From Candidatus Gastranaerophilales bacterium (GTDB lineage: Bacteria; Cyanobacteriota; Vampirovibrionia; Gastranaerophilales; Gastranaerophilaceae), in contig CALUWF010000012.1 in assembly GCA_944324405.1 (NCBI GenBank), positions 1 to 41,049 of the forward strand: DNA of 41,049 nt, read 5' to 3'. This document shows, one piece after another, positions 312 through 41,049 of the stretch. The position numbers and the translations under genes were made by a program. The notes beneath the pieces are model-generated. The model was given only the letters and a program-made list of their open reading frames with translations, was not told the DNA's origin and made no database searches. The stretch's first letter is position 1; each line of letters starts with the position of its first letter.

Positions 312-436
312 AAGATCCTGAAACACCAAGTAGGGGCGTAAAATCTCGTTTCGGCTTTGCCTCAACGGATTTTCCAGCCAGTTCAGGATGACGGTACATT
401 GGGTTCAGGATGACAGAATATCGAGTTCAGGACGAC
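312..436 (-). repeat. Dispersed repeat cluster with 3 x 22-bp tandem copies
   Basis: The unit GTTCAGGATGAC occurs at 381-392 and 403-414, and as GTTCAGGACGAC at 425-436. The period is exactly 22 nt, with a conserved 12-nt core and a variable 10-nt spacer. AAGATCCTGAAAC at 312-324 is the complement of GTTTCAGGATCTT. Read on the minus strand, the parts match those of the element at 39742-39792: GTCAYCCTGAAC followed by GTTTCAGGRTCTT. An imperfect hairpin (arms 340-350 and 364-373) lies between them. This looks like a known kind of dispersed palindromic repeat seen in many bacterial genomes. Its role is unknown. Confidence 0.65.
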
Positions 437-38002: not shown

Positions 38003-39131
38003 TGCCTATCGAAATGCACTTCTTGAAAAGAAAGAAAGCCTTAATTTCCGCTCATTAAATGCACTTGAAATTGAAGGCAAATATGTAATACAAAACAACA
38101 GAAGGCTTTTAAACCTCTCATCCAATGACTATCTTGGAATTAGCACCTATGAAGATATCAGGCAGGAATTTTTAAAAAATTACGACAAGCCGCTCAGTGT
38201 GCCCTCTGCAAGGCTTTTGTGCGCAAATACAACTTCGTATGAAAAACTTGAAGTGCTATTGAGCCAAAAATTTAAAAAGGAAGCCACACTTTTATTTAAC
38301 AGCGGCTATCACGCAAATGTCGGCATATATAGTGCCCTTGCCAAAAAGGGCGATGTTGTGTTTTGCGATAAGTTAAACCATGCGAGTATAATTGACGGGA
38401 TACGCCTTGGCGGCGCGGATTTAATACCTTTTAAACATGTTAATTATGAGGACTTGGAGTCAAAGTTAAAAAGATACGCTTCTAAATATGAAAATGTAAT
38501 TATTGCAACAGAGGCTCTTTTTTCAATGGACGGTGATTTTTGTGACATAAAAAAACTCACTGAATTAAAAGAGAAATACAACGCAATTTTAATTGTTGAT
38601 GAAGCACACTCTTTTGGCGTGTATGGCGGCGGTTTGGGCTTTTGTGCTCAAGAAAAAATGCTCGATAGTGTTGATTTGATTATGGCGACTTTCGGCAAGG
38701 CTGTCGGGTCTTACGGAGCTTTTTGTGTCGGGCGCAGGGTTTTGATTGATTATTTAATAAATTTTTCGCGCTCTTTTATTTTCTCGACGGTTTTTCCTCA
38801 AATAAGCGCCGAGTTTGCATATTTTGTGCTTGAAAATTACATTTTTAAATCAGATAACCTTGCAAAAAAACTTTTAAGCTTAAAAGACTATATGCACAAA
38901 AACCTCTGCGGCCTTGATATTCTTGGCTCAAGCTATATTGTTCCGATAATTTTTGGCGAAAATAAAAAAGCTCTTGACGCCTCTAAAAAATTATACGAAA
39001 ACGGCTATTACTGCCTTCCGGTAAGGTATCCGACAGTTGCCAAAAACTCCGCCAGATTAAGAATTTCCCTTAATGCCGCACTTAATGAAGCAGACTTGGG
39101 CGGACTTATAAATCAAATAAAAAAATTGTAA
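37986..39131 (+). CDS. bioF: 8-amino-7-oxononanoate synthase-like (BioF/Kbl family)
   Basis: A 381-residue PLP-dependent alpha-oxoamine synthase. In biotin synthesis BioF condenses pimeloyl-ACP/CoA with L-alanine. The relative Kbl uses glycine and acetyl-CoA. Visible features are NLSSNDYLG (43-51), HASIIDGIRLGGA (132-144), the PLP-contact IVDEAHSFGVYG (203-214) and the Schiff-base lysine in ATFGKAVGS (K238). BioF is favoured over Kbl by overall pattern, but the acyl substrate is not proven. It overlaps the symporter gene by 17 nt. No other biotin gene is in the window. Confidence 0.85.
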   Translation: MKNPYNAYRNALLEKKESLNFRSLNALEIEGKYVIQNNRRLLNLSSNDYLGISTYEDIRQEFLKNYDKPLSVPSARLLCANTTSYEKLEVLLSQKFKKEATLLFNSGYHANVGIYSALAKKGDVVFCDKLNHASIIDGIRLGGADLIPFKHVNYEDLESKLKRYASKYENVIIATEALFSMDGDFCDIKKLTELKEKYNAILIVDEAHSFGVYGGGLGFCAQEKMLDSVDLIMATFGKAVGSYGAFCVGRRVLIDYLINFSRSFIFSTVFPQISAEFAYFVLENYIFKSDNLAKKLLSLKDYMHKNLCGLDILGSSYIVPIIFGENKKALDASKKLYENGYYCLPVRYPTVAKNSARLRISLNAALNEADLGGLINQIKKL

Positions 39132-39430
39132 ACTGCTTTGTAAAATGTTCGCAACTCCTTATCGCTGAGGCGATTAAGTATATTTAAAATATCTTTTATT
39201 ATTTCTTTTCGCGATTTTAACGTCTGAGTCTGAAAAAAATCCCCCAAATTAACTTCAAGCGCGGTGGCAATTTTGTCCAAAGTTTCCAAAGTCGGCATTG
39301 TATGACAGTTTTCAATGCGATTTATCGTGCGATGATTCATTGAAATCATCTCGGCAAGCTTTTCTTGCGAAATTTTTTTTGCCCTTCTTATCTCTTTTAT
39401 TTTTTCGCCAACCAGCGCAATTTTACTCAT
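39113..39430 (-). CDS. XRE-family helix-turn-helix repressor
   Basis: A 105-residue repressor. The HTH spans about residues 9-65 (GEKIKEIRRAKKISQEKLAEMISMNHRTINRIENCHTMPTLETLDKIATAL). A helical tail (ILNRLSDKELRTFYKAVYNFF) resembles that of the XRE protein at 14988-15314, so they are probably paralogues. AGAGG precedes the ATG. It is divergent from the prepilin gene, whose promoter lies under a long palindrome (39509-39545) that is the obvious candidate operator. Its 3' end overlaps bioF by 19 nt on the opposite strand. Confidence 0.88.
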   Translation of the reverse strand: MSKIALVGEKIKEIRRAKKISQEKLAEMISMNHRTINRIENCHTMPTLETLDKIATALEVNLGDFFQTQTLKSRKEIIKDILNILNRLSDKELRTFYKAVYNFFI

Positions 39431-39545: not shown

Positions 39546-39634
39546 AAAAAACCTGGAAATTTATAGCTGCATGTCTAACTAAGATACAGCTTGGTTCGGA
39601 TACCTTATTCTAAATAAAATAGAAAGATACGAAA

Positions 39635-41049
39635 ATGAAAAAATTATTTTTTAACCGCATCCGCGGTCAAAGGCATGCTTTTGCCACCGGTACTTTTGCT
39701 GCGCATAAACCCGCTTTTACCATTTCGGATAAAAACAATTTAGTGTGCAATTGTCACCCTGAACTCGTTTCAGGGTCTTATAAGTGCACACTGAAAAACA
39801 ATAATAAACAGCATAAAAAATCCGCATTTACTCTCGCGGAATTATTAACGGCAATTCTTATAATCTCAGTCATCATGGTAGCCTTAGCACCAGTTATTAC
39901 AAAAAGAATGAAAGACTCTATTGCAGTAACTACTGATAATAAAAAAGGTTTAGAAATATTTACAAACCCCGGTACTTATACTTTTGATGTCCCAATCGGA
40001 ATAAACACATTATTTATTCAAGGCTCCGGCGGAGGCGGTGGAGGAGCGGGAGCAAACGAAGCAGCATCTAAAACAGACTCCTATACTTCCAATTCAACTT
40101 GGACTGTTCCAAACGGTGTTAATAAAATTACACTTGAAATCATAGGTGCCGGCGGAGGCGGCGGAGGAGCAAATGGCAGCAAGACACCTAGTATAAATGA
40201 AAAAAACCCATATGTATATAATGACAAATGTTTGAGTGATGAATTTTTAGCCATTCGTGGCTCAAATGATGAAACTGATTTATGTATTGTTAATCACAAT
40301 GTTTCAATGCCAAATATCATTGGAATATTCCCATTGAATACCAGATGTGATACTGACACTTGTTGCTGGGAGGCCGAACCACCAGGCTCGCATTGTAGTC
40401 CGCCAAAACAGGGCGATGCCGCAACGGGTTGCAGCAGAATAGTTTGCACATATCAAGGTGCTGCACAAATGGTGGCTTATTACAAATATAATAATAATAG
40501 AGATTATATGTATGTCTATAGGTTGCCTGATGAAATTGAGGGCAACAAAATAATAAAATATCTTGATGACTGGTCAATAAATGCTGGGTCAAAAGGATTA
40601 CAGCTTTGCTCGTATAATGATGTGTATAGTTGTACTTATAATGAGCCTGATACTGTTCCAATATGTGCCGCGCATTATGGCTGTATAGGCTCTGTAAATG
40701 GTCAGTGTGCGTCACACGTAGTATTGCTTGCAAATGAAAAGAGGTTTGATTGGGGCGGTTCATGCAACAAATATGTAGTTGATAACAATAATTATACTGG
40801 CAGTGTACGCCCAGTTCGCTCTCTTAATCGTTACAATCGCTTCTCCGCCTCAGGCGGAGCATCAGGAGCAATCATGGAAAAAGAAATTAATGTATTACCT
40901 AATGATAAGTTAGAAATATCAATAGGCTCCGGAGGAGATGGAGGAAAGTATGGAACAAATGCAAATAATGGCATATCTTCTCGAAGCGGGAACGGAAAAC
41001 AGGGAGGACAAACTAAGGTAGTTCATAAAAGGGGAAGTACAACTCTTGG
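39635..41049 (+). CDS. Prepilin-like protein with glycine-rich domains (3' end outside window)
   Basis: An open frame with no stop for 471 codons, cut by the window end. Residues 63-90 hold a type IV prepilin-like signal, SA then FTLAELLTAILIISVIMVALAP. Cleavage is expected after Ala64, with Glu at +5. The leader before it is about 64 residues, far longer than usual, and part of it (residues 37-53) is encoded by a palindromic repeat. Two modules of the form F-x-x-PGTYTFDVP...GSGGGGGG (to 140) and TWTVPNGVNKITLEIIGAGGGGGG (to 178) follow. A cysteine-rich region (about 200-370) and another Gly-rich stretch (431 on) come next. It is probably a surface or pseudopilus component. The Shine-Dalgarno is weak. 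Confidence 0.82.
   Translation, partial: MKKLFFNRIRGQRHAFATGTFAAHKPAFTISDKNNLVCNCHPELVSGSYKCTLKNNNKQHKKSAFTLAELLTAILIISVIMVALAPVITKRMKDSIAVTTDNKKGLEIFTNPGTYTFDVPIGINTLFIQGSGGGGGGAGANEAASKTDSYTSNSTWTVPNGVNKITLEIIGAGGGGGGANGSKTPSINEKNPYVYNDKCLSDEFLAIRGSNDETDLCIVNHNVSMPNIIGIFPLNTRCDTDTCCWEAEPPGSHCSPPKQGDAATGCSRIVCTYQGAAQMVAYYKYNNNRDYMYVYRLPDEIEGNKIIKYLDDWSINAGSKGLQLCSYNDVYSCTYNEPDTVPICAAHYGCIGSVNGQCASHVVLLANEKRFDWGGSCNKYVVDNNNYTGSVRPVRSLNRYNRFSASGGASGAIMEKEINVLPNDKLEISIGSGGDGGKYGTNANNGISSRSGNGKQGGQTKVVHKRGSTTL
39742..39792. repeat. 51-bp palindromic repeat inside the prepilin gene
   Basis: The outer arms AGTGTGCA (39742-39749) and TGCACACT (39785-39792) are perfect inverted copies. The inner hairpin CCCTGAA (39757-39763) and TTCAGGG (39769-39775) closes a 5-nt loop. 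The inner core matches the repeats at 1-10 and 312-436. Its length is a multiple of three and it is read in frame, giving the peptide CHPELVSGSYKCT. Confidence 0.75.

Follow-up and report, generated by a model that had tools for sequence, protein, structure and literature searches.

Prepilin leaders as a probable permissive sink for a CGTC-like palindromic repeat in Gastranaerophilales

Introduction

How can a palindromic repeat that lies mostly between genes come to be translated within a protein, and why would that protein survive it? The question is raised by a locus in the genome of a Candidatus Gastranaerophilales bacterium (1.80 Mb in 48 contigs, 99.6% complete; G000), at the end of its contig 12, which was analysed over its whole length of 41,049 nucleotides and is called the window below. 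Here the repeat is read in frame within the leader of a prepilin-like protein. Prepilin leaders are hydrophilic, vary in length, lie in the cytoplasm and are removed after a Gly or Ala residue by prepilin peptidase (PMC10191384). In-frame palindromic elements are known from Rickettsia (RPE) and Wolbachia (WPE) (PMC2229807). The original prediction, made on the window alone, likened the repeat to the Rickettsia elements and proposed that it is tolerated because the added residues would be lost on maturation.

Results

The element and the gene that carries it

Folding of the window sequence at 39742-39792 gave -24.2 kcal/mol (shuffled sequences, -9.6±2.2 kcal/mol), and the two nested inverted repeats that had been claimed there are indeed present: an outer stem of AGTGTGCA and TGCACACT, and an inner stem and loop of ACCCTGAA-CTCGT-TTCAGGGT. 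The features of the locus are as follows.

39742-39792, forward strand: 51-bp nested palindrome with the in-frame peptide VCNCHPELVSGSYKCTL (fold z=-6.7; inverted repeats I2 and I6)
39755-39776, forward strand: repeat core CACCCTGAACTCGTTTCAGGGT, with TGTC tag, 8-bp stem and 5-nt loop (26 genome copies with at most three mismatches; reversed control, none)
312-390, reverse strand: non-coding long form of the element, with about 40 bp replacing the loop (from sequence and alignment; in-frame equivalents in L032 and L037)
400-436, reverse strand: two half-copies of the element, GGTTCAGGATGAC and AGTTCAGGACGAC (direct-repeat family D1)
39619-39637, forward strand: start codon ATG at 39635, preceded by AGAAAGATACGAAA; both are retained in syntenic orthologues (as aligned with L166 and L181)
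39635-39826, forward strand: expanded, net positive prepilin leader (MKKLFF...HKKSA; 64 codons), whose last residue is the Ala of the predicted cleavage site (from the open reading frame, which has no stop, and syntenic leaders)
39827-41047, forward strand: predicted mature prepilin-like protein with FTLAELL N-terminus, hydrophobic helix and glycine-rich domain, running off the contig end (Pfam N_methyl and Gly_rich_2)

The open reading frame from 39635 reads through the element and yields the peptide CHPELVSGSY, as originally stated. The reported match to a non-coding cluster at 312-436 is real but partial: that cluster consists of half-sites and a long form, in which the arms are the same but about 40 bp stand where the 5-nt loop would be. 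The long form is also read in frame, as HPELAEKSVEAKPKRDFTPLLG[VI]SGSYK, in two other pilin leaders of the genome. The sequence of the element is open in three of its six frames, and two hydrophilic frames cover nearly all cases.

A class III signal was taken as a hydrophilic leader ending in Gly or Ala and followed by a hydrophobic stretch, usually with Glu at +5. The window gene has Ala followed by FTLAELLTAILIISVIMVALAPV, and both of its Pfam matches exceed the cut-off (N_methyl, 22.3 bits, at residues 60-84 of the open reading frame; Gly_rich_2, 29.2 bits). Cleavage is predicted between A and FTLAE, the F being encoded at 39827, and the element thus stands before the site, where the original prediction had placed it. 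One prepilin peptidase gene (Peptidase_A24) is found in the genome. The window pilin gene diverges from an upstream gene of the Cro/CI-like HTH type (39113-39430, reverse strand). At least five other pilin paralogues (L029, L032, L034, L037 and L038) have weaker relatives upstream, an arrangement that hints at a regulator paired with each pilin.

Copies in the genome form modules shared by paralogous pilins

Since the core occurs 26 times in the genome and its reversed control not once, the repeat is not a chance one. Ten of the copies are non-coding. The remaining 16, retrieved by the proposed search for copies inside genes, all share one frame (HPELVSGS) and one orientation, and all lie ahead of the cleavage site, in ten paralogous prepilin-like genes; an eleventh expanded gene (C47) has the long form only. 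The leaders of these 11 genes comprise 52-204 codons, and three more close paralogues (C18, C48 and C1_193k) have short leaders and no element.

The expanded leaders are built of a module of the type KKSAFTLAxKxxxTxxCHPELVSGSYKxxxKxNNxQ, which spans 37 codons and is sometimes repeated in tandem, with copies 111 bp apart in four genes; up to three short copies occur in one leader together with a long form. Parts of the sequence that surrounds the cleavage site recur within the modules, which are common to several genes, and from this we infer duplication or recombination among the paralogues. The window copy, then, is probably not a fresh insertion of its own but part of a module shared in this way. 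Many contigs end 0.5-1.5 kb into a pilin gene (for example the window at 41049, and also C1, C11, C21 and C46); the assembly is therefore probably interrupted by near-identical pilin N-termini, and our count of family members may be too low.

Orthologues of the expanded genes have short leaders

Orthologous pilins were then aligned, as had been suggested, in three sister species (G002, G008 and G013), each with 17-18 matches to the pilin query and with zero copies of the repeat. With about 500 bp upstream of each start as the query, a syntenic counterpart was found in at least one sister species for 11 of 11 expanded loci. The best matches were 76-84% identical, and the leaders of the counterparts comprise about 5-23 codons, versus the 52-204 of the window genome. 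Upstream of the window gene, the sequence is syntenic with G008 and G013 over several kb as far as the start region, and synteny sets in again at 39827; G013 also has the start codon with GAAAGATACGAAAATG. Its 64-codon leader compares with 20 codons in the syntenic gene of G013 and with 21, counted from the conserved ATG, in that of G008 (L181), where an alternative upstream ATG, the first in frame, would give 56. The element had been expected to add 17 codons without breaking the frame. The frame is indeed open, but, as the 51-bp element belongs to a larger module, the difference from the orthologues exceeds 17 codons. An ancestral leader carried by all orthologues as conserved protein sequence, which the original prediction had named as the finding that would speak against it, is contradicted by these short-leader orthologues.

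The repeat recurs in leaders of other genera, in both orientations

We scanned 288 genomes of the family for copies of the element that lie 0-61 bp ahead of FTL[AS]E and found 39 places in 14 genomes of six genera (reversed control, none), with 21 sense places in seven genomes and 18 antisense places in seven others. Every inspected place was open through the element, reading HPELVSGS (or HPEFISGS) in the sense orientation and [IT]LK[RQ]VQ[DG]D in the antisense one; once the reading was VTLNSFQG, with a later ATG. In G028, a genome of another genus with 186 copies, the leaders concerned belong to a different pilin type and carry the element the other way round (for example MKEKIKNLTILEKTVRSENGKILKRVQDDRHA before and FTLAEVLITLGIIG after the cleavage site). 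A variant starting with ATGCTGAAA gave nine more places, eight of them in frame before FTLAE, and in this variant the element itself offers a possible start codon; one match, L341, is out of frame and not pilin-like and was dismissed as due to chance. The association of repeat and leader arose separately in several Gastranaerophilales relatives, in both orientations and in other pilin families.

Some of these leaders (L393-L401 of G149, L262 and L271) also contain other repeat peptides (RHSERSEES, EGATHVD and ATQRICTRVSEAKLVPKTTLL), so that prepilin leaders seem to gather repeats of several unrelated families. In L340, L344 and L269, FTLAE is followed by GATHVD and, in two of them, then by a second AFT-type site, an arrangement that resembles the FTLA duplications of the window genome but belongs to different genera.

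A census by position places genic copies almost only in leaders

Both pattern scans demand a pilin motif and are thus biased toward pilins; copies were therefore also taken by position, with genes called simply as open reading frames by codon usage. In 741 kb of G028, 70 of 88 copies were intergenic, 15 lay in pilin leaders, none in mature pilin sequence and three in short open reading frames, which on inspection turned out to be fragments (remnants) of pilin leaders. Leaders make up 0.9% of coding bases there, and the binomial probability of 15 out of 18 is about 2e-28, a value that in truth is weaker given the shared ancestry of the copies. The 27 copies examined in G149, a genome first noticed through the pilin scan, were divided between intergenic sequence (18) and pilin leaders (9), with none elsewhere. 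G014, of the same genus, had 43 intergenic copies out of 44, one in another gene and none in a pilin leader; the outcome therefore depends on the lineage. Taken over the four genomes (G000, G028, G149 and G014), 43 of 44 genic copies lie in prepilin leaders or their remnants and none in mature pilin, counts that exaggerate the number of independent events since leader copies are related by gene duplication. This distribution supports the proposal that the leader's removal is the reason for tolerance.

Is the leader translated, and is it under selection?

On sequence grounds, translation of the leader is well supported. The main rival reading treats the leader as a 5′ untranslated region and the element as an ordinary intergenic REP or mRNA hairpin, with translation beginning nearer the cleavage site. 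A warning that many 5′-end REPs may be non-coding has been given (PMC3733652), and most of those in P. putida, C. koseri and S. maltophilia are inferred to be so in the same work; in some relatives, moreover, an ATG follows or lies within the element (L260, L265, L270, L274 and the ATGCTGAAA variants). In the window gene, however, no ATG, GTG or TTG follows the element ahead of the cleavage site. Its near-start codons are a GTG at 39743, inside the element, and a CTG at 39791, at the element's end, and a true start downstream of 39792, the other finding that would have spoken against the original prediction, was rejected; the distal ATG at 39635 and the sequence upstream of it are, instead, conserved in the syntenic orthologues. 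Over the 11 expanded leaders the frame contains 0 stops in 1,241 codons, whereas the two remaining frames of that strand contain 40 and 156. Many distal ATGs are preceded by a Shine-Dalgarno-like GGAG or AGGA, and in G028, genes such as L267 carry AAAGGA ahead of the distal ATG and lack a later one. An untranslated leader is thus disfavoured in the window species, and we consider it quite improbable.

A translated leader could still owe its arrays to selection, if the repeats served recombination or gene conversion among pilin paralogues or if the hairpin tuned translation. The spread to 11 paralogues, the regular tandem spacing, the stacking of copies in one leader and the sharing of modules between genes would all fit such a role, as would the low pN/pS of the core (0.23) among 16 module copies, for which the overall value is 0.60 (values are pairwise and not independent). 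The low value in the core may, however, stem from homogenisation or from the palindrome itself and not from constraint on the protein, and the flanks reach 0.70 (5′) and 0.45, the former suggesting weak constraint. The sister species, moreover, keep the same pilin family without any element, and other genera use the other orientation with different flanking sequence; selection for the arrays seems to us unlikely. Scarcely any chance is left to the idea that the leader is an ordinary ancestral protein domain that merely resembles an intergenic repeat: the uniform frame and orientation of all coding copies in the window genome would agree with it, but the short leaders at syntenic loci in three species, the non-coding copies in the same genome and the opposite orientation in other genera do not.

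Discussion

The reading we favour, with a probability of roughly 0.8, is that a CGTC-like REP element finds a permissive sink in the cleaved, hydrophilic prepilin leader, and that its survival within genes is almost confined to this leader. A small REP-like palindrome with a CGTC or TGTC tag would spread through Gastranaerophilales genomes, mostly between genes, and would survive within genes almost only in the leader part of type IV prepilin-like proteins, from the start codon to the cleavage site. Translated in that position, it would yield a hydrophilic peptide, HPELVSGS one way and [IT]LK[RQ]VQ[DG]D the other, which would stay in the cytoplasm and be removed by prepilin peptidase together with the remaining leader. 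If the leader is removed, its length and sequence would matter little while the frame stays open, and an in-frame insertion need only avoid stops and hydrophobic stretches. In the window species, one such leader may have been captured along with part of the KKSAFTLA sequence, giving the 37-codon module, which would then have spread by recombination to at least 11 paralogous pilins and multiplied in tandem. Translation in vivo, near-neutrality and the recombination route we infer from sequence; cleavage is predicted, and leaders of up to 204 codons are very long, which counts against the explanation.

According to PMC3733652, CGTC REPs have a terminal CGTC (TGTC or CCTC in many), a stem of 8-9 bp that almost invariably starts with AT, a loop of 4-5 nt and, in most, a CCA-fitting tail; RPE-4 and RPE-6 are classed among them. 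Our element is likewise small and mostly intergenic, with a TGTC (window and G028 copies) or CGTC (G004 copies) tag, an 8-bp stem and a 5-nt loop. The first stem bases are AT in CATCCTGAA copies and AC in CACCCTGAA copies. Its tail, unlike the CCA consensus, is CTTA in most copies, and we therefore call the element CGTC-like rather than a member of the CGTC REPs.

The proposed likeness to the in-frame palindromes of Rickettsia holds for the coexistence of copies between genes and copies translated in frame within genes (PMC3733652, PMC2229807), a comparison by description; the genic copies are, in addition, absent from orthologues. It fails for the range of hosts. RPEs occur in many different genes and are kept in the product (for example, guanylate kinase), whereas here one functional class is affected, in a part that is predicted to be removed. 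Closer in another respect is YPAL/RU-2, an enterobacterial MITE-like repeat that supplies part of a targeting peptide in YPO1552 (PMC2229807); that case, however, concerns a single hydrophobic export signal and not a recurrent hydrophilic class III leader with tandem modules.

As to a mobiliser, the window genome has one REP-associated tyrosine transposase (RAYT; NF047646, 135.5 bits; L085, 1357-1887, reverse strand, on contig C3). No element copies with at most three mismatches lie on that contig, and no Y1_Tnp was found in other sampled members of the window genus or in the repeat-rich G004, G014 and G028; the presence of a RAYT does not track repeat number, and its role as the driver seems doubtful. 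A known RNA family was discarded, an Rfam search of three sampled loci having given only a tRNA. In a limited literature search we found no paper with HPELVSGS or 15-mers of the core, and no description of such repeats confined to prepilin leaders. Protein-coding palindromes are already known as RPE and WPE.

A wider interpretation, possible but doubtful, would make leaders a general and repeatedly used refuge for mobile palindromes in Gastranaerophilales and, at the same time, make the modules of the window species cassettes for recombination, by which about 14 close pilin paralogues would swap leader and N-terminal sequence, a process that would help to diversify a surface filament family.

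Why proteins survive translated palindromes has been a puzzle since Rickettsia, and here the answer looks readable from the distribution of the copies: the peptide is predicted to be removed. The repeat thus provides a natural insertion-tolerance experiment on prepilin leaders, in which repeats of both orientations have entered one site in several genera, and which suggests that leader length may range from about 5 to more than 200 residues.
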